Shown: one piece after another, positions 5,803-51,855 of the stretch
Layout: each line of letters opens with the position of its first letter
Position numbering within the stretch: the stretch's first letter is position 1
Assembly: GCF_964355755.1 (NCBI RefSeq)
Contig: NC_092670.1
Span: forward strand, 24,222,795 to 24,286,794
Source: Antedon mediterranea
Taxonomy: Eukaryota; Echinodermata; Crinoidea; Comatulida; Antedonidae
Direction: 5' to 3'
DNA: 64,000 nucleotides
The notes under the pieces: model-generated
Seen by the model: only the letters and a program-made list of their open reading frames with translations
Database searches by the model: none
What the model was told of the DNA's origin: nothing
Translations under genes and position numbers: made by a program

Positions 5803-6064
5803 TTATCGACCTCCTCTTAATCTTGGTAGGAGATAAATTGTACTCTGGTCTTTAATGTTGTAATAGCCCAACGTGTTGCCATCTTCTAGTTGTCTACTCT
5901 CAAATGTTAGTCTCTGTTGATCCACTGGAATACGCTCCCTTCCTGCGATTTCATGTTTCAGTTGTTTTACTGTGGTTGATTTGCGCATGTTTTGATAAAC
6001 GATAGATTTTCCATCATGGTTTTTAACAAAAATGTCAAATGTATCGGAGGTACGTGTTGCATAA
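5803..6064 (-). CDS. Ubiquitin-like terminal exon of cGLR copy 1 (open, but gene is broken)
   Basis: The acceptor AG is at 6066-6065 and one nucleotide completes the split codon. The exon then encodes a short linker followed by a full-length ubiquitin fold. Key blocks are 'FDIFVKN', '[19 protein letters not shown]' and the end 'RLRGG' plus one Arg before the stop. It is nearly identical to the copy 2 exon (12123-12384). The copy 2 polyadenylation signal AATAAA has drifted here. The reading frame is preserved even though the upstream catalytic exon is destroyed. Confidence 0.8.
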
Positions 6065-7417
6065 CTAAAGGAAAAAATATATATAATGTAGAAATATTAA
6101 TTATGTAAATATAATAATATAATTCGCAAAGAATAACAAAATGATAATCTCAAGTTTTTATGTAATTTGTCAGCGTTTACTTAGCAAAATAATAAGTTTG
6201 ACACCGCAAATCTCTCCGGAAACCAACCCGATAATTTATAAAGCGCTATCTGCAGTGCATTAAAGACCTCAAGCTAAAAATGGAATGTTTGATAGTCTAA
6301 ACCAGTAAACTGTGAACAGATAAACAAAATGATTATCATCGCACCAAACTTCGCGATACTGGATTATTAAACTATATTTCGAATAGGAAAAACAATCAAA
6401 TTAGCATATAATACAGGTACTATATATGCAAGCAATCCAACATTGTGCAATAAGCATCCAATGATGTTTCCATGGTATTTGGGGGAAAATAAATTCCACT
6501 TATTACTGGCTTACATTTTATTCAGTAGGAAACTGATAATTCATCATCACGCATAGCTCTTTTAAGCCATCCCAGAATGTTGTCCAGTGAGGCAGGCTTA
6601 TACCGATCAAGAAGATTCACTGATTCGCAGAAGAAGTTGGGCACGTTGCGTTTTTCAAGGAAAAGCATCAGAGTCTGAACCAAATCTTTGAATCTATCTG
6701 CTAAACTGTCTTGGTGCCACGATAGGTCAGGACCGTCCTTGTTTAAATGCAGCATACAGTCTTAAGGTGATATGACGACAGCATTCCTAGTTGTGAAGAT
6801 CCTGCCTTCTTCTGAACTGTCTTCAGAATTTTCAGGGTATCACTACGGCATTCATTTATTTTGTCAATGCTGTTGAATATACTTTTTTCTCTATCCGAGA
6901 AACTCTCCCTCCATAATTGATCGTATTCAGAAGTATTTAAATGACGAGGACCTTTAGCCACAAAGTGCCTACCATCAATAGTTAAGCTTGGAACTATATC
7001 AATAGACATTACTTCCACCGTTGGATATTAAATACATGGCTGGACCACCAGATTCCTTAGGGGTTATCGTCATGCCTAGGTCATTCTCATCGCCATGAAC
7101 TATTTTGTCTACGGTTGACTGCATGTTCTGACGAACTGTATCAGGGTTCAATCGCCCGGCTTTTATAAAATCAGCCAATGTAGATTCAATCGAATGTGAC
7201 GTTTTCTCAATCAAATAGTAGCCATCTAATCTTCCTTCTGTGATTCTCCAATTATTAGTAGACAGTTTCAAAGGAACCAGTAAATCAAATTCGTCTGCCT
7301 TAATCACCTTCAAACCTTCGTATGTACTTCCTTGATGAAAGATCTGCTTAAAGTTAAATGATGAAGAGTGATGGGAGATCTCGAACTTTTTTATATTTTT
7401 TCAACGGCTTCTTTTGC

Positions 7418-9056
7418 GAGGCGAGTCATATGGCCAAGCGGTTAAGGCAGGGGCGCCGTTTACCGTACCTAAAGAGCCAACAACAACATCGGCAAGGGTT
7501 CGAGGCCGACTCGCTCCTAGTTCTGGTGGTGGAACAAGTCTTCTCGGATAAGGACTATAAACCGTAGGTCCAGTGTACACAGTTATAAGTTACCAGTGGC
7601 GTATCCGGACCAGGATTTTGAAGTTGGGGGGGGGGGGGGGCCGGGAATTGCCAATTTGCCGACAAAATTGGTGTCATTATCTGTACATACACGACGTCTC
7701 TGATCAATATATGTTCTAGGATTACATAGTCATATTGCCTTATATGGGATGACGATGCAAAATTAAAACCAAACCAACATTATCTGTTAGTATGTTGTAT
7801 TTACAATAAAGAAAGAATTAGGAAAATCTGATTGGTAGTTTTCGAAATATAGGGTCTAAAACATCGCCGAAAATGATCGTTTTTAGCCACGAAAGAAGTA
7901 AAACAATTTGCGGCCTCAGTCGACAATTCTATTAACTACGCCATTTTTGGTTAAAATAATTACATATAATTACGTTTTTTAGTAATTTATTTTATATATC
8001 ACCATTGGAAATATCAATAAAACATGTTATTAAATGCTTATAAAATATATAAAGTTGTTTACTTAACGGAATTCGGACAAATTCATTGCTCTAACTTTGT
8101 GTAGTAACGATCAGAGAGATTCATGGTACACGCGCGAGAGAAAACATTCCGCTGCGGGCGATTCGCATCCACCAATCAAATCAGCTAGAATCCTAAATCA
8201 TTCAACCGTGAGCAATGCCAATCGCGAGAAAGCTCAGCTTTGATTGGCTTACGATGACATCACATCACAAAATGGTGGTTTTGTAGTTGAGCCTCACGGA
8301 ATATTCTGTTCCAAAAATGAAATACATGGATATTTTTTATGGTATATGTGCTTTTTCTTTAAAAATTTTGAATAATAAAGGCCTCATATCGAGAAAAAAA
8401 ACCGGGTTTTTGGCACTTATAATAAATATATCTTAGACAAAAAAGCACATGGCATGTGGAACTATATAGCCTAATCTCTTAGCGTAGGAAGACATACAAA
8501 TTAAATCCCAGGTCATGAGAGGCTCAACTGCATGCAAAAACAAGGTTTTAGGGTAAGGTCAAAGACTTTTGAGTAAACAATCTACCGCGTACGGCCGTAC
8601 GTACGTGCTACACATTTTTTACGTGTTTCGTTAGATGTAATGAAAATAAAAAATAGTTGATCTGAAGGGATCAATGATGATATGTAAATAAACAAACACT
8701 CAAAAGAATTATGTTTACAGTTCAATTATTGTCAGAATAAATAGTTTATTTTTTTCCCCGGCACCTTTGTTTGCCGACGGCCGCGATGATGTGCCGACGG
8801 AAACGAAATCAGGGGGGCCCGGGCCCCCCCGGCCCCCCTACTGGATACGCCACTGGTTATAACCTGTGTGTACTTTAAAGAACCCAGTTCATTATTCGAA
8901 AAAGAGTAGGGGGTTACCCCGGTGAACTGGTTCACACAATAGCCCCTGTATCAGGGGGATTACCACCTATCTGATAGGACAGTGATTAATTCACTATTGG
9001 TAATCCTTGGCCACATTGCCTAAAGACATAAAATAAAATAAAATAAAATAAATAAA
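7418..9056 (+). mobile_element. tRNA-derived SINE interrupting cGLR copy 1 (itself interrupted)
   Basis: The insertion is flanked by the direct repeat TTTTGC (7412-7417 and 9057-9062). The empty site is visible in cGLR copy 2 near 13690. The head has a box A-like 'tggccaagcggttaaggc' and box B-like 'ggttcgagg', as in a tRNA-Leu/Ser-derived SINE. The body contains 'ttctcggataaggactata' and 'gtagggggttaccccggtg', and the tail is (AAATA)n. The same SINE family recurs at 31246-31560. Without the nested DNA element it is about 375 bp. Confidence 0.9.
7593..8856. mobile_element. Non-autonomous DNA transposon nested in the SINE
   Basis: The termini 'ccagtggcgtatcc' at 7593 and 'ggatacgccactgg' ending at 8856 are inverted repeats, each followed inward by a long G/C homopolymer region. 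The SINE body is contiguous across the insertion (compare 31246-31560). CAGTGGCG-type ends are typical of hAT-like non-autonomous elements. I cannot read a clear target duplication, so the superfamily is uncertain. It has no transposase frame. Confidence 0.8.
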
Positions 9057-10315
9057 TTTTGCTTGTCTCTGTTCATGTTGAGGGATGTTGACCTCATCTA
9101 GAAGGTAACTCCTTAGAGCTCCTATCAAATTTGCTGCACACATACTGCACTCTAAAAATTGTAAAAGATGGTTATATGAATAGATACAACGATAGCATTT
9201 AATGATTTTATTTCTAAGAAATGCAATGTATATAATTAGTTATACTATACAAATTTAACCTATATTATTTATTTAACTGTTCGATCCAGAAGGTTCTGCG
9301 TATACGGGCAAAATGCCTCCTTAATTATATACTAGAAACATCAATTTCAATAATGAAATCATACATTTTGTTTAAAAACTCTTTATAATATCTTCCTAAG
9401 ATAGAAATATGGAACTATATCGTAATAGTGAAAACTAATGTTATCAAATTTACATTTCACGGTACATCTGAGATAGATCAGGTAGGTATCTAAGGCAGAG
9501 ATTTGTACCAAAGTTTTTTCATTGTGCTCGCCTATGTCAGAATTAACCATAATTTATATATAGATACATACCCTATAGGCCTACCGTAATTAAATCATAT
9601 ATTATATTTGGAAATATCCTATTTTTAACTTTCTTCGTGGTATCGGATTATTCATCAAATGATTAAAAGGTACATATATTTACACAGCATCCAAACTCAA
9701 CAAAAAAATGTGGTTTTTTTTTTTTGCCTCTCCTACCATTTTGTCTGTGTGCATGCGTCCGTGCGTGGTAGATTTATTTTATGAATGAATGTCTATTTGG
9801 AATTGGAACCATTCTGAAGGAAATCGAGAACGTGCGTATAGTACGATGCACATCGATTAATTTAAAAAAAAAGACAAAACAAAAATGGTATTATTAATAT
9901 AATTTGTCGTGTTTAACATAATGACTGGTAATTTGGAATAATAAATTTTGTAATATGATACGATCATACTGTTGTCCTTAAGTTATTTTTAGACTTAAAC
10001 TATTGTTGTATGTATGATATTATATGGCCTACAGTCTGCTGTGAGAGAAAATGCACCGATTGTTAATTAAATATCATATCTACTCTACGCAGCCATATAA
10101 CCGTCTTAATGAAAATTAATTAAAATAAATGACGAAAATTGACTAACCTTAGTTTGTTTGTGAAACAGTATTTTCACTAGACATTCCGGCTGGTTTTGAC
10201 TACGCAAATTTGTGACAAACTATGTTTTAAACATTAGACAAGAGGAAGTCCCGTTACTTCCTCGCCATCCAGGGTTAAACTTCATAAAATGCTATTTTTA
10301 TACACTAGTGATATT

Positions 10316-12065: not shown

Positions 12066-12071
12066 TTTATT
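12066..12071 (-). terminator. Polyadenylation signal AATAAA of cGLR copy 2
   Basis: A canonical AATAAA on the minus strand lies about 52 nt after the ubiquitin-exon stop codon. The aligned position in copy 1 has drifted to a non-canonical sequence. Confidence 0.6.
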
Positions 12072-12122: not shown

Positions 12123-12384
12123 TTATCGACCTCCTCTTAATCTTGGTAGGAGATAAATTGTACTCTGGTCTTTAATGCTGTAATAGCCCAATGTGTTGCC
12201 ATCTTCTAGTTGTCTACTCTCAAATGTTAGTCTCTGTTGATCCACTGGAACACGCTCCCTTCCTGCGATTTCATGTTTCAGTTGTTTTACTGTGGTTGAT
12301 CTGCGCATGTTTTGATAAACGATAGATTTTCCATCAAGGTTTTTGACAAAAATGTCAAAGGTATCAGAGGTACGTGTTGCATAA
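12123..12384 (-). CDS. Ubiquitin-like terminal exon of cGLR copy 2
   Basis: The acceptor AG is at 12386-12385, after a modest tract. The exon is 262 nt: 1 nt completing a codon, 86 residues and a stop. After a seven-residue linker the domain matches ubiquitin without gaps. The Lys-6, Lys-11 and Lys-27 positions are kept. Lys-29, Lys-33, Lys-48 and Lys-63 are replaced (E, R, R, D), and Ile-44 of the hydrophobic patch is Thr. The C-terminus RLRGG is followed by a single Arg. It has no start codon at the right place to be an independent ubiquitin gene. Confidence 0.85.
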
Positions 12385-13775
12385 CTAAAGGAAAAATATA
12401 TATAATGTAGAAATATTAATTATGTAAATATAATAATACAATTCGCAAAGAATAACAAAATGATAATCTCAAGTTTCATGTCATTTGTCAGAGTTTTACT
12501 TAGCAAAATAAGAGATGTGTGACATCGGAAATCTCTCCGATGAATTACAAAGCGCTATCTGCAGTGCATTAAAGACCTCAAGCTAAAAATGGAACTTTTG
12601 ATAGTCAAAAACAGTAAACTGTGAACATCATTGCGCCAAACTTCGCGATACTGACCCTTAAACTATATTTCGAATAGGCAAAACAATAAAATGACACTAT
12701 ATGCAAGCAATCCAATATTTTGCAATAAGCATCCAATAATGTTTCCATAGTATTCGGAGAAAAATAAATTCCACTTATTACTGGTTTACCTTTTATTCAG
12801 TAGTACTCTGATAATATGCTCATCATCACGTGTAGCTCTTCTAAGCCATCCCAGAATGTTGTTCAGTGAGTCTGCATCATAGCGATCAAGCAGATTCACT
12901 GATCCACGGAAGAAGTTTGGCATGTTGCGAGTTTCAAGAAAGTGCATCAGAGTCTGAACCAAGTCTTTGAATCTATCTGCTAAACTTTCTTGGTGCCACG
13001 ATAGGTCAGGACGGTCGCTATTTAAATGTAGCATACACGTTTTAAGGTGATACGACGACAACATTCCGAGTTGTGACAACCCTGCCTTCTTCTGAACTGT
13101 CTTCAGAATTTTCAGGGTATCTCTACGGCATTCATTTATTCGGTCGATGTTGTTGAATATACTTTTTTCTCTATCCGAGAAACTCTCCCTCCATAATTGA
13201 TCGTATTCAGGAGTATGTAAATGACGAGGACTTTTAGCCACAAAGTGCCTACCACCAATGTTTAGGCTTGGAACTATATCAATAGACATACTTCTTCCGT
13301 TGTATCCAACATCCAACGTTATGGCTGGACCAGAATAACTAAGGTTTATCCTCATACCTAGGTCACCAATTCCATTAACAACTGTCTGCACAGTTGACTG
13401 CATGCTCCTTCGAACTCTATCAGGGTTCAATCGTCCGTCTTCTATAAGGTTACCCAATGTCGAGTCAGTGTAATGTGACGTTTTCTCAATCAAATAGTAG
13501 CCATCTAATCCTCCTCCTGTGATTCTCCAATTAGTAGATAGGTTCAAAGGAACCAGTAAATCAAACTCATCTGCCGCTATTACCTTCAAACCTTCATATG
13601 AACTTCCTTGATGAAAGATCTGCCTGAAGTTAAATGGTGAAGAGTGGTGGGATCTCACAAACACGTTTTTTATTTTTTGAATGGCATCTTTTGCTTGTGT
13701 CTGTTCATGTTGAGGGATGTTAACTTCATTTAGAAGGTAACTCCTTAGAGCTCCTATCAAATTTGCTGCACACAT
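12123..13775 (-). CDS. cGLR copy 2: cGAS-like nucleotidyltransferase fused to C-terminal ubiquitin-like domain
   Basis: The predicted CDS joins 13775-12790 and 12384-12123 (415 residues). The start Met at 13775 aligns with the starts of copies 3 and 4 and sits just after an acceptor-like gtgcag, so a 5' untranslated exon is likely. The N-terminal 329 residues are a cGAS/Mab-21-type nucleotidyltransferase: G57-S58 of the GS motif, E70 and D72 in 'DEFDLLVPL', D166 in 'SIDIVPS', and the family motif 'SSYHLKTCMLHL'. All catalytic acids are present, so it should make a (cyclic) oligonucleotide messenger when activated. No cGAS-type zinc thumb is visible, so the ligand is unknown. Exon 1 ends AAA-AG followed by GTAAAC (phase 2). 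Exon 2 begins with the one base needed and encodes a 76-residue ubiquitin fold ending RLRGG-R. The splice junction is inference from matching phase and sites, seen identically in copy 1. Confidence 0.85.
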
Positions 13776-14512
13776 ACTGCACTCTAAAAATTGTAAAAGA
13801 TGGTTATGTGAATAGATACAACGATAGCATTTTAATGATTTAATTTCTAAGAAATGCATTTTATTTTAATGTTTATCATTAATTAATGATACTATACAAA
13901 TTAAACCTATATTATGTATTTAACTGTTCTGCGTGTACGGGCAAGTATAGGCCTCCTTAACCATATACAAGAAAAATAAATTTCAATAATACATACCGTA
14001 CCGTAATTGAATCTTATATTATATTTTGAAATATCCTATTTCTAACTGTCTTCGTGGTATAAAAGCTTACTCATTATCTATCAACTGATTAAAAATGGTA
14101 CATATTTACACAGCATCTAAAATCAGATAGTGGGAATTTACGAGAGTGGGAATTCACCAACTGTGACGTACACATAAGCATTTACATAAATGCAACAGCA
14201 AACCTTGTACATGATGATGATTTTTTTTTATTTTTGTTTTTTTTTTACCTTCCCCGCCATTCGTTGCAAGAAGGATTTGGCCTATTTATTGAATCAAAGC
14301 TTTGGTCACGTGCGTGGTAAATTGTTATGAATGAATGTCTTAATTGGAACCTTTCTGAAGGAAATCGGACGTGCGTATAGAGGATGCACATCATCTTTCA
14401 AAATCAAATTGAAAAAATACTAAATGACGGTATTATGAATAATAATTTGTGACTGTTAATTTGGAATAATAAAGTTTGTAATATGATGCGATCATACTGT
14501 TGTCGGTCGGTA

Positions 14513-16299: not shown

Positions 16300-16580
16300 G
16301 TATGAAGGGCGTGGTGGTGCAGTGAGATCGTAGAGGATTCTAATCCAACCTAGTTGCATTGCTTGTATCCTTCGGCAGGACACTATGTTTGCCTCTCTCC
16401 ACCCAGCTGTACATATACAAATGGGTACCTGCTAAGTTCAAGGCATAAATTTGCGCTAGTAACTTATGGAAGTATGTTTCCATATGTGTTGATCCAAAAA
16501 TGACTGGGGTAATAATATGTCTGTTTCCCCAATGGAAAGCAGTGATATTTCTGATCTGGGCTTCCCTCTCTAAATAAGAC
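16300..16580 (+). repeat. Probable SINE-like dispersed repeat
   Basis: The stretch begins 'gggcgtggtggtgcagtgag' and contains 'tcggcaggacacta', 'gcctctctccacccag' and 'aaatgggtacctgctaa'. These phrases are typical of tRNA-like dispersed repeats of marine invertebrates. I do not see a second copy in this window, so the boundaries and family are uncertain. Confidence 0.45.
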
Positions 16581-16685
16581 TTGTCTAGTTGCTTACTTTT
16601 GAAAAGTTAATCTAATTAAAACCATCTTTCCCCTGTGTTTCAGTTGTTAATCTCTGCCCTTGCTGTCAGTATTGCATGTTGTATA

Positions 16686-17823
16686 TTATTCAACTTGGTC
16701 CTGAATACTTTGTGGTTTTCTGTCAAAAAAAAAAGACAAAATGTTTTATTTCAGTTAAAATATCTAAAAATTCTGTTGATTATAAACGTTAGACTGTTGC
16801 CGTAGATTCTTACTTTTTGTGAAGTAACACACTGATTATCTGCTCGTCATCGCGTCTAGCATTTTCCAGCCACTTCACAATATGATCCAGGGATTCTTTG
16901 TTGTACTTAATATTATTAATAATTAGATTCATTGACCTGCAGTGAAAGTGTGGTATGTTGGAGTCCCTAAGAAAATCTATCAATGTCTGAACTAAATCCT
17001 TGAACCTATCTGCCAATTTGTCTGGCTCCCACGATAATTCAGAACGATTGGCTAAATGAAGCATGCATGTTTTCAGGTGATAAGACGACAGTAGTTTTAG
17101 TTGGGATTCTCCTCTTTTTTCCCGAATTGTCTTTAGAATTTTTAGACAATCTCGACGGCATTCATTCATTTTGTCCATAGCTTTTATTCTTTTTTTTTCT
17201 TTCTTGGAAAAGCTCTCCCTCCATAGTTGACCGTATTCCTTGTGATCACGAAGATGCCGGGGACTTTTAGCAACAAAATGTCTGCCGTTTAGTATTAAGC
17301 CTGGAACAATATCAATAGACAACTTTTTGTCGTTGAACTTTAGTGTGATAGCTGGGCCAGAACTTCTCAGGTTTATTGTCATTCCTGTCATACCATTGAC
17401 AGCTTTCTGCACAGTCGACTGCATGCATTTACGCACTTTTTCCGGTATCAATCTCTCTTGCTCTATTAGGTCATCAAAGGTCTTGTCATTTTCATTTGAA
17501 TTCTGTGACTTCTCTGACTTTTCAATCCAAAAGTAGTTACCTAGGTCTTTTTCTTTTGGTTCTTTGATTTTCCAATCGCTAGATTTTAGGTTAAGAGGAA
17601 TCAAAAGGTCAAATTCATCAGCTGCTATGACCTTTAGACCTTCGTATGAACTTCCTTGATGGTAGATCTGCTTGAAGTTGAATGGCGAGGAGTGTTGGAA
17701 TTTATGAAAAGCTTCTCGAATCTTTTGAACGGCTTCTTTGGCCTGTGTTTGTTCAAGTTTAGTAAAAGTGACTTCAGTTTTAAGATAATTCCTTAGCTCC
17801 AGCAACAGGTTTGATTCAGACAT
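16686..17823 (-). CDS. cGLR copy 3: cGAS-like nucleotidyltransferase without ubiquitin domain
   Basis: The predicted CDS joins 17823-16814 and 16719-16686 (about 347 residues). The start ATG follows a good acceptor (tatcttttcag), so a 5' untranslated exon is expected. It has the GS motif at about 57-58, E70 and D72 in 'DEFDLLIPL', D171 in 'SIDIVPGL' and 'SSYHLKTCMLHL'; the catalytic triad is intact. Copy 3 has an acidic/Ser-rich insertion around residues 100-117 relative to copy 2. The exon ends AAA-AA followed by GTAAGA. The next acceptor (AG 16721-16720) leads to ten further residues and a stop. If the intron is retained, the TAA inside the donor stops translation after 337 residues. No intact ubiquitin exon lies downstream. 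Confidence 0.85.
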
Positions 17824-18560: not shown

Positions 18561-21179
18561 AGGCATGTTTGGTTTGTCGCCCTCTGTTGTCTGGAAATAC
18601 AGTACTGTAGTGTGGTTGGTATCATTGTCTTGTGTATAAGCCGAGTTGGTGAATTGTATTGTTGAAAGAAAATATAACATTGCAGGCTATACCTCACTGT
18701 ACACTCAAATGATTTTGAATACATAATTGTTAGATAAAACCAATTGCTTTGATGGCTTGAATTGAGAGGATTAACTATTATTGTCCGATGTTATTCAGCA
18801 CATTTTTATTCAAGTACTGTAATTATTAATTATTTATTAAATGTGTGTCCAAAGTAGGCTAAGAGTGTAATTGTTATTGACAAAACTGTTGTTGAATCCA
18901 AGCATATAATTATTCGCATTAATAACTGCTTTATCAGATTTAGTTTTATAATATCGGGGAATAAAGGATTATGGATTGCCTGTTGACTCCTTTAAAGTAC
19001 AAGTAAATATAATTACTGAGTGTTAAATATTCAATTCAAAACTTTTATCTATTTTCCAATTTATTAATAAAAATTCACCTGATATGCTTAAGCTTGCATC
19101 TGAGATTTAACATTTAAACGTTGTTGATTTGGTAACGTAAAAGATGAATAGAAACCTTTAATTACATACATTTATTCCTATACCTACCCCTTCTTCTTTT
19201 AATGTTTTTTTCATTTGTTAGAACAATCAATATATATTTCAGCCCATTTTTCCCCTCAATCTTTTTTCCTAGTACTCTTCTAATTTGTTTTAATGGCCAC
19301 TGTTTTACCAACGTAATTGTTTACTCCAAAATGTTTTATGCTGCTGGTCAAATTGTTTCAGTTGTAGAAAACCATAAAAGATACGATACGATAATATTCA
19401 TTGTCATTTTCACAACAAGGTACAAATAAAATTTGGTTGGTTGATTTTTCTTCAATAACTTCTTAACGTTTTCCGTCTTGCGACATTACGCTTTCCACAA
19501 TTTGTTTCCATGTTTGTCTGTTTATGGCAGAGGATGGTTTGTTATTGTGTTAGTGTCTACATATCCTTGTAAGTCTTTCTTTATTTGATTCATCCTGTTA
19601 AACATGAATAGAACTATGAACAAATGACTGTCGGCAACGTTTAGTGTTTTGATTGAGAGTGATCAGTCTCCCAGTTTGGCTAAGTTTACAGAATTTATTT
19701 AAAGGGTTATCGGGATCTTGACGAATTTTATTGACAGAAGAATACTTTCTCTATGGTAGAACTTTATATTTTGTTGTTGTTTAGTTAAAGGCCAACTCGA
19801 TTCCAATTAATTTGTTTCTTCATTTAACAATACATGTGACAATTATACTGTACATTATATTTTATTTAAATATTCGGAAAATTATATTATTATAAGTAGA
19901 ATCAATCAATTATCAAAAAATACTACTAAAACACTACTGCCAGTTGGCATCATACCTTTGCTTGATTCATTAATCTTATCAGTAATTGTGGAGTTAGTAA
20001 GAACATAAAACTAGATTAAATTGTTTATTTAATTTTGTATTTATTTAAAAACATATTCAGGATAAAAGACATATATTACGGAACAACTATTTTACATATG
20101 AATCTGCTTTACATCTATAACATCTATACAAAGCTAAAACTACATAACACTTAATAAATTTTAAAATAAAATAATAAATAAAACAGTTAAAAACAAGTGT
20201 ATATTTAACTTAAGTATAATTTTTTTGACATGACATTGGATTTAAAGTAAAAACCCCTATTAAGGGGACACTTATAATTCACCAAGTGGTTATTTTAATT
20301 TCTATTACGGGGAAACAATTATTTTCCCATCACAAAACAACACAAACAAGACCAAAATAAGTTATATTCATTTGGTTGGATCTTCATAATTATTTAGGAT
20401 ACTAATTTCTCTGGCATTGTCTAATGAATTACAGTTTTCATTGGTAATATGCTTACATGTTACTCCACTTTGTTTGTTTGTTTATTATATTTTTCACACA
20501 CATTTACTCATATAATACAGTTGTACATTCTAATAGATTAATATAAATTAGATTAAAAGAAACATGTGTGTGGATGGAGATCAAATGAATTAAAGAACTT
20601 TAAGTCTGACCCCTATTTTTACACACCAATATTGTCAACTTTATTTCCCCCTTAATTTGTACTGTCAATTCAAGGGACTTTAACTCAATAACCTACAACC
20701 TGTTTTTTTCCTAATATTACTACATTTCCGTCGATGTGCCTTAAAACGATTGCTGTGGAATGCGACCAATCAGTGTAGGATCCAGATTGTAAAATGATGT
20801 GCTAAACGTAACATACAATATGTTCGTAACCTTCTAGATCATTCCTTGGATTAAAGTTTCTATTAAAAGCATACTATTCCTGATTGTTCTTATATTAATT
20901 ATAGATAGTTTCTTAAATCTAAACACATTCTAGAATGTTCATGTAGATGTTACTGTACATGTTAGGGAATGGTAATTTATTACATCCACTGCCTTTCCCA
21001 TTTCACTCATGATAATCTTGTAGCTAAGGAGGGTGAGTGGAATGATTGGTTAGGCTTGATACCAAGGTCCATACGATGCAAGCGATGACGATGGCAAACA
21101 TAATGCATCTTCAATACCGATACGGCGTTAATCTGCCAAAAGGCGCGCAGCATTTTTGATTATGCATTATTAACAGGTA

Positions 21180-21610: not shown

Positions 21611-22297
21611 AATCACAATGCATGTTCAAGACACCGGTCATACAATATGCAAGACAAATATTTAAAACACTCTTTTCATTGGACCACAACATGTATACAT
21701 TATCCTTTCTGTTAAATTGTCCATTGCAACCGCATATTGATATCTTTATCGTGGCTGACAAAGTTTTAATTCTTTTTTTTTCTTTTCTTTTATTCTAATT
21801 AGTCCCGATTTAATATTGTATCGCACATTTGTGTTTTTCCCGTGAAAATACACTGATTGTGTTTTATATCCATTGAATAACTATCCTTATTGCAAACACT
21901 TTCAAGTGGTCAATTCTACAATATATTTTAAATATTTACAAATAATGTGATTATTAGGCATATATTTAAAATAATTAATTAAAAATTAGGCCTAATTGTC
22001 TCTTAATTGTAATTGTTTTTACTCGAATTTGAAAGTTATTTATTTAAAACGTTTAAATTGTAAAACACAAGCACGCACTCAGACTGGTCTTTAAATATAA
22101 TTAAATTAATTAATTACAGTAACTATATTTACTTTTATTTCCTCAACCTCCGCATCCTTCTAAACTTACAAAATCCATTTTTTAGACCTATTGAAGAGTT
22201 TCTTTATTTTTATTACGCTTGATTAATCATTTTCCTCGTGTTTCAGTTGAAGGACTTAACTTCGAAGCTGGTAGTTTTCTTCCTTAAAGGTTTTATC

Positions 22298-22349
22298 ACA
22301 TTGCCTCGTTATATTTACTCCCAAATGTAAATCTCTGTTGATCAACTCT
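22298..22349 (-). pseudogene. Relic of a ubiquitin exon downstream of cGLR copy 4
   Basis: 'tactcccaaatgtaaat' then 'ctctgttgatcaactc' matches the ubiquitin exons of copies 1 and 2 ('tactctcaaatgttagt' then 'ctctgttgatccactg') over about 35 bp with only four or five differences. The orientation is the same. This is the segment coding for the [10 protein letters not shown] part of the domain. The rest of the exon is unrecognisable, so it cannot be translated as a domain. Confidence 0.7.
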
Positions 22350-22421: not shown

Positions 22422-23722
22422 TCACGATTTTCTGAATAATAACAAATACATTTTTTTAATTAATATACAAATTCTATTGCTCATAAGGTTGATGGCAAAT
22501 AGTTTGATTTCGCGAGGCACGTCACTGCACAATGTATGATGGGAAGAGTTTTCGAGCAATAGCGCCAACGTATAATACAAACTTTATAATACTTGTGATG
22601 GCGCCATTGCTTCCAATTCTATCCCATCAGGCATCACTAATGCTATTTGCGATATAATATTAGACCATTGTTCTATTACCTTTCTTGAAGTAAAACACTG
22701 ATAATCTGCCCATCATCACGTGTAGCATTGTTCAGCCATCTCACAATGCAATCCAGTGATTTTGTGTCATACTTTTTCCTATCAATAATTAGATTCACTG
22801 ATGTGCAGTAGAAGTTTGGTATGTTGTGTTTACTAAGAAAATCTATCAGCAACTTAACTAAATCCTTGAACCTATCTGCCAATTTGTCTGGCTTCCACGA
22901 TAAGTCACGATTGGACAAATGTAGCATGCATGTTTTCAGGTGATAAGACGACAGTGATCCCAGCTGGGAGGATCCTCTTTTTCTCTGAATTGTCTTCAGA
23001 ATTTTTAAACAGTCTCTACGGCAATCATTCATTTTGTCCATAGTTTTTATTCTATCTTTTTCTTTCTCTGAGAAGCTCTCCCTCCATAGTTGATCGTATT
23101 CCTTGTTATCGCGGAAATGTCTGGGACTTTTTGCAACAAACTGTCTGCCGTTTAGTGTTAAGCCTGGAACGATATCAATAGACAACACTTTGTCGTCATA
23201 CTCAACATTTAGTTTTATAGCTGGACCAGAACCTGCCAGGTTTATTATCATTCCAAGGTCTTTCATACTATTCACAGCTTTCTGCACAGTCGACTGCATG
23301 CTCTGACGCACTTTAGCCGGTATCAATCTTTCTTGCTCTATCAGTCCTAGATTATCAAAAGTTTGGTATTTTTCATTTGAATTTTCTGACTTTTCTGACT
23401 TCTTTGACTTCTGTGACTTCTCAATCCAAAAGTAACTGTCTAAATCATTTTCTGTTGGTCTGGTAATTTTCCAATCGGTAGATTTTAGGTTAAGGGGAAT
23501 CAAAAGGTCAAATTCATCAGCTGCTATGACCTTTAGACCTTCGTAAGAACTACCTTGATGGTAGATCTGCTTGAAGTTAAATGGTGAGGAGTGTTCGAAT
23601 TTATGAAAGTATTCTCGAATCTTTTGAACGGCCTTTTTAGCCTGTGTTTGTTCAAGTTTAGTGAAAGTGACATCAGTTTTAAGATAACTTCTTAGCTCCT
23701 TCAACAGGTTAGATTCAGGCAT
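22422..23722 (-). CDS. cGLR copy 4: cGAS-like nucleotidyltransferase without ubiquitin domain
   Basis: The predicted CDS joins 23722-22680 and 22431-22422 (about 350 residues). The start ATG follows an acceptor (acctcttttag). It has the GS motif at 57-58, E70 and D72 in 'DEFDLLIPL', D183 in 'SIDIVPGL' and 'SSYHLKTCMLHL', so it should be catalytically competent. A short Lys/Ser/Glu-rich repeat around residues 101-116 (KS-x units) is longer than in copy 3, consistent with slippage in a surface loop. The exon ends GAA-AG followed by GTAATA. The next acceptor (AG 22433-22432) adds only two residues before TGA. It is closest to copy 3. The acidic and HLKT motifs put it in the cGAS-like receptor group; the ligand is unknown. 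Confidence 0.85.
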
Positions 23723-27461: not shown

Positions 27462-28497
27462 TCAAAATGTTGTCATCTTAATTTCTTGCTGAAAGTTTGT
27501 TTTGCGGGAATTGCAAGTACACATATGTACGATAGTGTACAGATATGGATTAATGCACGAGTTGATAGGAATTATGAATGTTGCCGCCCAGACATATATT
27601 TCCTCTGGAATTTCCCACATTTCCGTCTCTGAACAAATCCATATCAGTATGACAGGGAACCAACAGCAGAAATCGGTGAAAACTATTATACCTAATTTCC
27701 AAGCCCTTCTTGTTAGATCCTTTCGTCTTTTTATTTTGTTGACAGTAGCTCCTGATCTCTTAACAGAGAAGAAAATTGCGACATAACTCGTTGCGATCAC
27801 GATAAAACCTAAGCCATTGAATCCAATAAAAATGGCAATAGCATACTCCCAGCCTGGCCACCGACTTCTTGTTAGTGGCAGTGCAAGGCAAACGCTCTGT
27901 TTCCCATAGTATTTTTCTCCAAAATACGATAAATTAATAAAGTCTAATCTGTTTACAAGTGGAAGAAAACTGAGAACAACCCAAACTAACCAACTAATAC
28001 CAATAATAATTTTACATTTTGTACTGTTTAGCCGTTTTGTAGTGAAAGGGTTCACGATGTTAACTGCACGGTCGATGCTCAATATCATCAATGTAGTTAC
28101 AGAACATTGGCCGGAGAGAGTAGAAATAGCACCGGCAAAGCTACAAAAAAAACTGCTTTTCCAATATCTTGCAACTTTTGCATACCGTCCTCTATAATGT
28201 ATATCTGCACTCGCTATTATGATCAGATAAACTGCCATCAGCAAGTCAGACACAGCCAGATTAGTAATGAGCATGGTTTGCACCTTATTAAAATCATTTT
28301 CATTTTTGTCCTTGTAATTAAACCTTCTTGATAAAATAACAATTCCATTACCAATGACAGATGAAACACCAATAACTAATATCAATACTCTTAACACTTC
28401 TCGTTTTAGTAAGTCTGCACAGGAAGCAAACGCATCTGTTGGTTCGCAGACATCAATGTCACCCACAAGACAACATAGACTAAACAAATCTGAATAT
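27462..28497 (-). CDS. LGR locus 1: seven-transmembrane exon of a relaxin-receptor/GRL101-like GPCR
   Basis: One exon carries the hinge and the whole 7TM domain (about 344 residues). The acceptor AG at 28499-28498 is followed by one base completing a Leu codon, then 'YSDLFSLCCLV', the hinge motif that follows the LRRs in RXFP/GRL101-type receptors. Residues are numbered from the Met-equivalent TTG at 28487. The Cys-rich hinge is at 5-23 and TM1 at about 31-53. The ECL disulphide pair is C115 and C200. The TM3 end is 'SIDRAVNI' (DRA in place of DRY) at 138-145. TM5 is about 213-240, TM6 about 262-286, and TM7 has 'NPYLYT' (NPxxY-type) at 313-318. The tail is short and includes CTC, a possible palmitoylation site. 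Upstream exons on the same strand supply the LRR ectodomain. The ligand is unknown; relaxin-like peptides are a family-based guess. Confidence 0.9.
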
Positions 28498-28597
28498 CTA
28501 AGAGAATTAACGAAAACAAAACATAGTTGTAAAGTAATGTTATTTTGTACATCTTACCTGCCTCATATATGGGTATTAAAATCCTTTCAATACTTAC

Positions 28598-50495: not shown

Positions 50496-51531
50496 TCAAA
50501 TGTCAACTTTTGTCATCTTAATTTCTTGTTGAAAGTTTGGTTTGCGGGAATTGCAAGTAAACATATGCACGATAGTGTACAGATACGGATTAATGCACGA
50601 GTTGATAGGAATTATGAATGTTGCCGCCCAAACATATATTTCATCTGGAATGTCCCACCTTTCCGTCTCTGAACAAATCCCCATCAGTATGACAGGGAAC
50701 CAGCAACAGAAATCGGTGAAAACTATTAATCCTAGTTTTCTAGCCATTTTAACCTGTTCCTTTCTCCTCAGTCGTCTGTTAACTGTTGCACCTGAACGTT
50801 GAACAGAGAAGAAAATTGCAACATAACTCGTTGCGATCACGATAAAACCTAAACCATTGAATCCAAAAAAAATGACAATAGCATACTCCCAGCCTGGCCA
50901 TCGACTTTTTGTTAGCGGTAGTGCAAGGCAAACACTCTGTTTCCCATAGTAGTTTTCGCCAAAATACGATAAATTAATAAAGTCTAATCTGTTTACAAGT
51001 GGAAGAAAACTGAGAACAATCCAAACTAACCAACTAATACCGATAATAATTTTACACTTTGTACTGTTCAGCCGTTTTGTAGTGAAAGGGTTCACGATGT
51101 TAACTGCACGGTCAATGCTCAATATCATCAATGTAGTTACAGAACATTGACCGGAGAGAGTAGAAATAGCACCCGCAAAGCTACAAAGAAAACTGCTTTT
51201 CCAATATCTTGCAACTTTCGCGTAGCGTTCTCTGTAGTGTATATCTGTACTCGCTATTATGATCAGATATACTGCCATCAGCAAGTCAGACACAGCCAGA
51301 TTAGTAATGAGCATGGTTTGCACCTTATTAACATTACTGTCATTATTCTTGTTAAACCGTCGTGATACGATTACAACTACATTACCAATGACAGATGAAA
51401 CACCAATAACCAACATCAATACTCTTAACACTTCTCGTTTTAGTAAGTCTGCACAAGAAGCAAAGGCATCTGTTGGTTCGCAGACATCAATGTCACCCAC
51501 GAGACAACACAGGCTAAACAAATCTGAATAT
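50496..51531 (-). CDS. LGR locus 2: seven-transmembrane exon of a relaxin-receptor/GRL101-like GPCR
   Basis: This is the paralogue of 27462-28497, with the same hinge ('YSDLFSLCCLV'), the same disulphide cysteines, 'SIDRAVNI' after TM3 and 'NPYLYT' in TM7. The acceptor AG is at 51533-51532. The frame is open throughout. Differences from locus 1 cluster in the cytoplasmic face: loop 1 is two residues shorter, loop 3 is rewritten around 'NRRLRRKEQVKMARK', and the tail ends KVDI and has lost one Cys of the CTC motif. The transmembrane and extracellular parts are nearly the same. Conservation of a long frame after duplication argues for function. Confidence 0.9.
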
Positions 51532-51855
51532 CTGAGGAAATTAATGATAAATTAATTACTGTAAACTAATACTATGTTGTTTTTGTAACCTGTCTACATA
51601 ATATATTTCTTCTGTAGGCCTAAGCCCGGAAGTGAACAGTTGCATTTTTAACAACCTCTGTATGAAGTGAAATCAGCGTAGAAGATTGCATCGAAAAGTT
51701 TAGCATACATTTGGGACTGCTCAAAGGAAAATACAGTTCTTTAAAATAATATGAATTCGTGTCAAGTTTAAAAAACAATTATTGAATATAATAGGTGCTT
51801 AAACATATTTTTGTATTGTAAATGCATTGTTATTAAGGTCTTATTCAATACTTAC

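Follow-up and report, generated by a model that had tools for sequence, protein, structure and literature searches.

A predicted fusion of a cGAS-like receptor to a ubiquitin-like tail in the crinoid Antedon mediterranea

The cGLR cluster in the window

The stretch of Antedon mediterranea DNA analysed here (64,000 nucleotides of contig NC_092670.1, positions 24,222,795 to 24,286,794, referred to as the window) carries four tandem copies of a cGAS-like receptor (cGLR) gene on its minus strand. Two similar genes for rhodopsin-type receptors are found on the same strand at 27462-28553 and 50496-51551, about 22 kb apart.

The catalytic exon of copy 2 (12790..13783, minus strand, with the acceptor before 13783 placed by eye) encodes a cGLR nucleotidyltransferase and its helical bundle. 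The reading frame opens with the ATG at 13773-13775 and runs intact to 12790, where it ends in phase 2. The exon matches the Pfam families Mab-21 (E value of 3e-17) and Mab-21_C (1.9e-17), and a Pfam scan of copy 2 carried to an E value of 0.1 returned these two and a MID51-like match only, with no OAS domain. The Pfam cut-offs for PF03281 and PF20266 are exceeded in copies 2, 3, and 4 as well as in L004, a related locus described below. In the PDB, the body of copy 2 matches MID51, cGAS-like receptor 1, and cGAS. The motif residues present in it are QGS at 56-58, EFDL at 70-73 (E70/D72), and a third acid, D166. The cGLR survey gives the active-site motif as h[QT]GS X8-20 [DE]h[DE]h X50-90 h[DE]h (PMC9980059); the residue preceding QGS in copy 2 is His, and the last spacing is 91 in copy 2, 96 in copy 3, and 108 in copy 4, against the stated range of 50 to 90.

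Behind this exon, after a predicted intron of 405 bases (12385..12789, minus strand, placed from the sequence and from donor and acceptor scores), lies an exon for a ubiquitin-like domain (Ubl; 12123..12384, minus strand) with the coding part at 12384-12126, which gives 86 residues plus a stop and ends in RLRGG-R. The catalytic exon ends AAT AAA AG|GTAAAC, with the GT of a phase-2 donor at 12789, and the codon formed across the junction is AGT (Ser). The exons are phase-matched, and joining them reproduced a model of 415 residues, as the sequence-only reading of this locus had proposed. Scored with a consensus matrix, the donor stands at the 98.2nd percentile among 3640 GTs of the same strand, and the acceptor TTTAG before 12384 at a middling 88.6th percentile among 3057 AGs. 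The earlier reading had also described a gap-free ubiquitin fold of 76 residues with a terminal RLRGG-R. The ubiquitin-family assignment and the tail held up (Pfam ubiquitin PF00240, E value of 5.3e-22, a sequence match), but the domain is not gap-free, as it is identical to ubiquitin at 37 of 76 positions with one residue inserted. The open frame of the Ubl exon (12419 to 12123) has no Met upstream of the fold, and the Ubl should therefore be spliced to something upstream. An AATAAA poly(A) signal (12066..12071, minus strand) follows about 50 bases past the stop. Judging from exons, frames, and splice signals, we infer that the two exons are spliced together and that copy 2 is very probably one gene encoding a cGLR with a C-terminal Ubl. 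It is the sole intact fusion gene inside the window.

Copy 1 had been put forward as a repeat of the same arrangement. It does possess the donor and an intact Ubl exon (5803..6064, minus strand, coding 6064-5806) that ends in RLRGG-R and is 95% identical to that of copy 2. However, its catalytic part (6515..9143, minus strand) is a broken remnant: after codon 29 it is split by an insertion of approximately 1.6 kb (about 9056-7434), it has frameshifts, and it has lost 4 bases close to its end. This rules copy 1 out as a second working fusion. The Ubl exons of copies 1 and 2 differ by only 4 synonymous and 4 nonsynonymous changes, and we did not use their identity as evidence of selection. Moreover, the intron (97%) and the 3′ side (95%) of the two copies are equally similar, so gene conversion is possible. 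Within the insertion in copy 1 (9056-7434) lie ends resembling AGTGGCGTATCCAG and its near reverse complement, which by eye suggest a nested DNA transposon; a tRNA scan over 7000-9300 found none.

Copies 3 (16810..17823, minus strand, phase-2 donor at 16813) and 4 (22676..23722, minus strand, phase-2 donor at 22679) are intact cGLR genes that are 78.6% identical to each other, with a dN of 0.12 against a dS of 0.37, a ratio indicating constraint on the cGLR body. Neither has an intact Ubl, and their introns show no similarity to the intron of copy 2. A Ubl remnant, possibly more than one, is probable behind copy 4 (22235..22347, minus strand), where the words VDQQRFTFGS and then QLKHE can be read. 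Aligned to the Ubl exon as DNA, the copy 4 tail scored 50, while the best of 200 dinucleotide shuffles reached 39 (0/200 at or above the score) and 1 of 1000 mononucleotide shuffles equalled it. Among 256 strand-tiles of the window, this tail ranked best after the intact exons, followed by a tile at 18.5-20 kb (44) and then by a score of 38. The words GATCAACAGAGAYTWACATTTGRGAGTA, which was shaped after seeing copy 4, and CAACTGAAACA, which was picked post hoc, recur behind copy 4. Behind copy 3, shared words mark a possible remnant (16496..16656, minus strand) that is weak on its own; its DNA alignment alone was not significant, the score being reached by 14 of 200 and 65 of 1000 shuffles. 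Between copies 3 and 4, the tile scan and shared words point to an orphan candidate (19293..19364, minus strand), likewise possible, near which neither a catalytic remnant nor similarity to the tails of copies 3 and 4 was found. The tails of copies 3 and 4 contain 12 of the 80 10-mer matches that fall outside the intact exons (overlapping, about five words), against an average of 0.82 and at most 7 in 1000 codon-shuffled controls, whereas the total of 80 is ordinary (control mean 70.5). A frameshift-aware protein alignment was not significant for any of the three (copy 4 scored 41, copy 3 scored 36, and the candidate at 19.3 kb scored 38, while the best of 56 control tiles reached 44). Over 22094-22347, behind copy 4, the Ubl words are ordered C-half, N-half, C-half, which hints at a possible former pair of tandem Ubls, as in OASL.

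Recurrence of the arrangement in the genome

A search of the 354-Mb assembly (18 contigs) with copy 2 as the query gave 17 matches (28 candidates scored) that grouped into 13 cGLR-like loci: copies 1 to 4, L004, L005, L006, L007, two loci on contig C7 (C7a and C7b), two on C6, and one Mab21-like gene on C5. Six of the 13 are followed by a Ubl, namely, copies 1 and 2, L004, L006, C7a, and C7b. In copy 2, L004, L006, and C7b, the catalytic and Ubl parts that were read form open frames, and each of these loci has a single Ubl; the body is broken in copy 1 and the Ubl frame in C7a. In the catalytic part, L004 is 48% and L006 35% identical to copy 2, and the Ubls of L004, L006, and C7b match PF00240 with E values of 8.6e-21, 8.6e-20, and 1.8e-14, respectively. 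No Ubl was found in the stretches around the cGLR-like loci on C6 and C5 (L015-L017), nor was one detected around L005 and L007 within 24119000-24134000. The intron between the cGLR and the broken Ubl of C7a contains a minisatellite of many near-identical units (L013, within about 7500-9000).

The search was also run in the opposite direction. A genome-wide search for the Ubl returned at least 29 matches, of which 18 were set aside as ubiquitin-type: five on C6 and eight on C11 in tandem repeats and one on C8, taken as ubiquitin from the matches alone; one on C10, which a comparison showed to be ubiquitin; and three on C4, which share 67-75% identity with it. Of the 11 that remain, six follow a cGLR, including the Ubl of C7a, which had an E value of 0.19 in this search and of 1.6e-11 when the L006 Ubl served as the query. 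Mab-21 yielded 48 matches genome-wide, and by coordinates no further Ubl match lies near any of those outside the 13 loci. Neither the cGLR alignment nor the Ubl detected relatives in scans of viral contigs. On C5, at 1.830-1.843 Mb (L038, L039), we observed three Ubl exons without an adjoining cGLR, two of them ending in LRLRGG and one in HGG; this unfused cluster possibly encodes ISG15-like modifiers.

The presence of unfused Ubls with such ends lends some credit to the idea that the Ubl exon belongs to a gene of its own, which stands behind a cGLR by chance. Against it, the pair recurs behind six cGLR loci on two contigs, including paralogues that are only 35% identical, on the same strand and phase-matched where traced; the fold in copy 2 has no Met ahead of it, and the fused Ubls have an insertion in common. 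We rejected the neighbouring-gene explanation on account of the recurrence behind distant paralogues and consider it extremely improbable. Decay of the whole locus into pseudogenes from which no fusion is made would agree with the broken copy 1, the broken Ubl frame of C7a, and the decayed look of the Ubls behind copies 3 and 4. Nevertheless, four loci have uninterrupted frames wherever they were read and match the Ubl domain, and the dN and dS values of copies 3 and 4 indicate constraint on the body, and we regard such decay as very unlikely.

The donor at the end of the catalytic exon

We compared the ends of the catalytic exons in ten loci, those on C6 and C5 lying outside the comparison. 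In all ten, the G of a GT forms the final base of the last sense codon. All nine in-frame ends (copies 2, 3, and 4, L004, L005, L006, L007, C7a, and C7b) carry a phase-2 GT donor in which TRA makes a stop codon, and copy 1 carries the same GT donor. The donor percentiles range from 92.6 (L006) to 100 (L004). The overlapped stop is TGA in L004, where the donor is GTGAGT, instead of the TAA of the other eight in-frame loci, so the conserved feature would be the donor.

The exons behind the donor differ between the loci. L004 joins a Ubl exon that ends exactly in RLRGG. L006 appears to have a pair of short exons before its Ubl, of which one encodes a hydrophobic stretch, and the Ubl ends in VKLH. 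In C7b, the exons between body and Ubl were partly traced, and a hydrophobic tail follows the Ubl. The exon bounds in L004, L006, and the C7 loci were placed by eye. L005 (G000:C1:24.129 Mb, plus strand) has the same phase-2 donor, and blocks downstream of it are conserved with L007; an open frame behind L005 (L010, about 1602-1763) ends in the strongly hydrophobic LISLLVVFIIIMLIGLFLI, and the counterpart frame in L007 has a stop. These features suggest that L005 may encode a tail-anchored cGLR.

In copy 2, the GTAA of the donor holds an in-frame TAA, so that the unspliced catalytic exon stops at once. The unspliced form could be the main product and the Ubl form a minor one, the overlap of donor and stop acting as a switch that yields either a plain sensor or a tagged one. 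Such an overlap occurs in 9 of 9 in-frame ends, an AATAAA lies just before the donor of copy 2 (12797) and another about 60 bases past the stop of copy 3 (16750), and copies 3 and 4 keep the donor though the Ubl behind them looks decayed. However, a G|GTRA donor in phase 2 creates the stop automatically, so the overlap may be meaningless, and copies 3 and 4 have no AATAAA at the place of the one at 12797 in copy 2. We consider this reading rather unlikely.

All five fused Ubls compared (copies 1 and 2, L004, L006, and C7b) have one residue inserted relative to ubiquitin, whereas the three unfused Ubls on C5, like ubiquitin itself, are without that insertion. In the tree of catalytic parts, copies 2 to 4 grouped together (99/99), as did L006 with C7a and C7b (100/100), with L004 and L005/L007 outside; the branch of the Mab21L outgroup is long, which leaves the root unsure. 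The Ubl tree joined L006 with C7b (99/97), was otherwise weak, and is compatible with the catalytic tree. Collectively, from these comparisons, the cGLR-Ubl genes look like a real and old fusion family of small size and common origin in this genome.

The ubiquitin-like tail and known systems

The STING ligand-binding domain gave 15 matches (exon pieces), all on the contig that carries the cGLR cluster, at G000:C1:19.07-19.11 Mb, which makes a cGLR-STING axis possible. The STING matches in this region are in tandem, and there are apparently several STING copies. According to the mechanism that we propose, the cGLR body would respond to a ligand, probably nucleic acid, by producing a cyclic dinucleotide for STING, and the spliced Ubl exon would supply a handle of the ubiquitin type. 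For the copies with RLRGG, the favoured use is that the tail would be charged by ubiquitin-type enzymes, which would then join the sensor to itself or to proteins close by; the tail of copy 2 would need one Arg trimmed after the GG and that of L004 none. For the copies without GG, the Ubl may serve as a non-covalent docking module.

The di-glycine end is found in copy 2 and copy 1 (RLRGG-R) and in L004 (RLRGG) and is absent from L006 and C7b. As the last two keep the Ubl fold without GG, conjugation cannot be what the Ubl serves in every member, and these two point to docking or membrane roles within some of the family. Read from the alignment, I44, K48, and K63 of ubiquitin are T, R, and D in copy 2, so the usual contacts and chains of ubiquitin are not retained and the domain is not simply ubiquitin.

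Chicken OASL offers the closest precedent for conjugation. Its tandem Ubl ends in LRLRGG and is described as conjugated, mainly to itself, and residues after LRLRGG must be trimmed (PMC8764230). By analogy with it, conjugation via the di-glycine end is plausible, and we advance it tentatively, as less likely than not. On the same tentative footing, the cGLR enzyme may itself be a ubiquitin-like modifier, which on infection would both make a cyclic dinucleotide for STING and become covalently attached via its own RLRGG tail. The fusion may also be real with a Ubl that is never conjugated. Such a Ubl would only dock, with ubiquitin receptors, a ligase, or the proteasome as its partners, or would keep the sensor inactive; the model here is mammalian OASL, whose Ubl is without LRLRGG and is regarded as a mimic of poly-ubiquitin (PMC8764230). 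Docking alone would fit the GG-less folds of L006 and C7b, the latter with its hydrophobic tail, and the Arg that ends copy 2 after GG. It sits less easily with the retention of RLRGG in copies 1 and 2 and in L004, although the body of L004 is just 48% identical to copy 2, and with the exact stop of L004 after GG, which a pure docking module does not need. We hold docking alone to be a serious possibility, at somewhat less than an even chance.

The relation to vertebrate OASL was part of the earlier interpretation, which had proposed an independent animal case, and that independence is well supported: the arrangement recurs behind paralogues that are 35-48% identical, the nucleotidyltransferase is of the Mab-21/cGAS type, and there is no OAS domain. 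Like chicken OASL (PDB 7SBI), the predicted copy 2 protein combines a nucleotide second-messenger enzyme with a C-terminal Ubl and ends in RLRGG followed by an extra residue; if conjugation holds, it would also work in a similar way. Unlike OASL, which has an OAS-type body and tandem Ubls, it has a Mab-21/cGAS body and one Ubl, which argues for an independent fusion. Furthermore, a 2018 survey describes OAS proteins of lower metazoans as having no UBL (PMC6307210). In the PDB search, chicken OASL (7sbi) scored 78.8 bits and single ubiquitin chains about 65 bits; we rejected this higher score as a sign of closer kinship to chicken OASL because a whole-sequence score can sum two domains.

The genes resemble the animal cGLRs of the published survey in their Mab-21 nucleotidyltransferase core, helical bundle, QGS and acid residues, and lineage expansion, and in the presence of STING in the genome (PMC9980059). 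They differ from the fusions named in its text, which are TPR, ankyrin, death-domain, and multi-cGLR proteins, in having a Ubl as the added domain; 87% of the cGLRs in that survey are without extra domains. The word "ubiquitin" occurs nowhere in the text of the survey, Table S2 of fused domains aside; architectures below 0.5% are pooled there as "Other," with the detail in Table S2, so a cGLR-Ubl may be listed in that table. The accessible text of a survey of eukaryotic CD-NTases has no occurrence of "ubiquitin," "ubl," or "OASL" (PMC10732462), and a TRADD-N survey mentions oyster Mab-21 fused to other domains (PMC8195603). The terms "cGAS-like receptor" and "ubiquitin-like domain" co-occur in work on parkin flies and human OAS2. 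Among the top-ranked matches in the literature on cGLR, cGAS, or OAS and ubiquitin, supplementary domain tables being outside the scope, a cGLR-Ubl fusion is unreported.

With ISG15 and ubiquitin, the proteins share a ubiquitin-family domain and an RLRGG tail. They are unlike both in that the modifier would be the tail of a sensor enzyme, in the identity of 37 of 76 residues with a one-residue insertion, and in the loss of I44, K48, and K63 in copy 2. A built-in Ubl tail would let a cGLR be attached to, or recognised by, the protein-tagging machinery, and this single genome offers a natural comparison set in paralogues that end in GG, that lack it, and that have apparently lost the Ubl.

In bacterial type II CBASS, the cGAS-like CD-NTase is itself conjugated through its C terminus by a dedicated E1-E2 partner, Cap2. 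If conjugation holds, the crinoid protein would be alike in that the synthase itself is conjugated through its C terminus. The type II CBASS conjugation is not known to involve a ubiquitin fold, however, whereas here the fold is present and the enzymes would presumably be the host's own. A cGLR with a ubiquitin fold would add a further independent case of a tagged synthase, now in the animal cGAS branch, and raises the question of whether the tagging of synthases recurs because the second-messenger output is boosted or limited by it. If conjugation holds, the crinoid cGLR-Ubl would be the counterpart in eukaryotes, arrived at by another route, of the conjugated CD-NTases in CBASS and of avian OASL.
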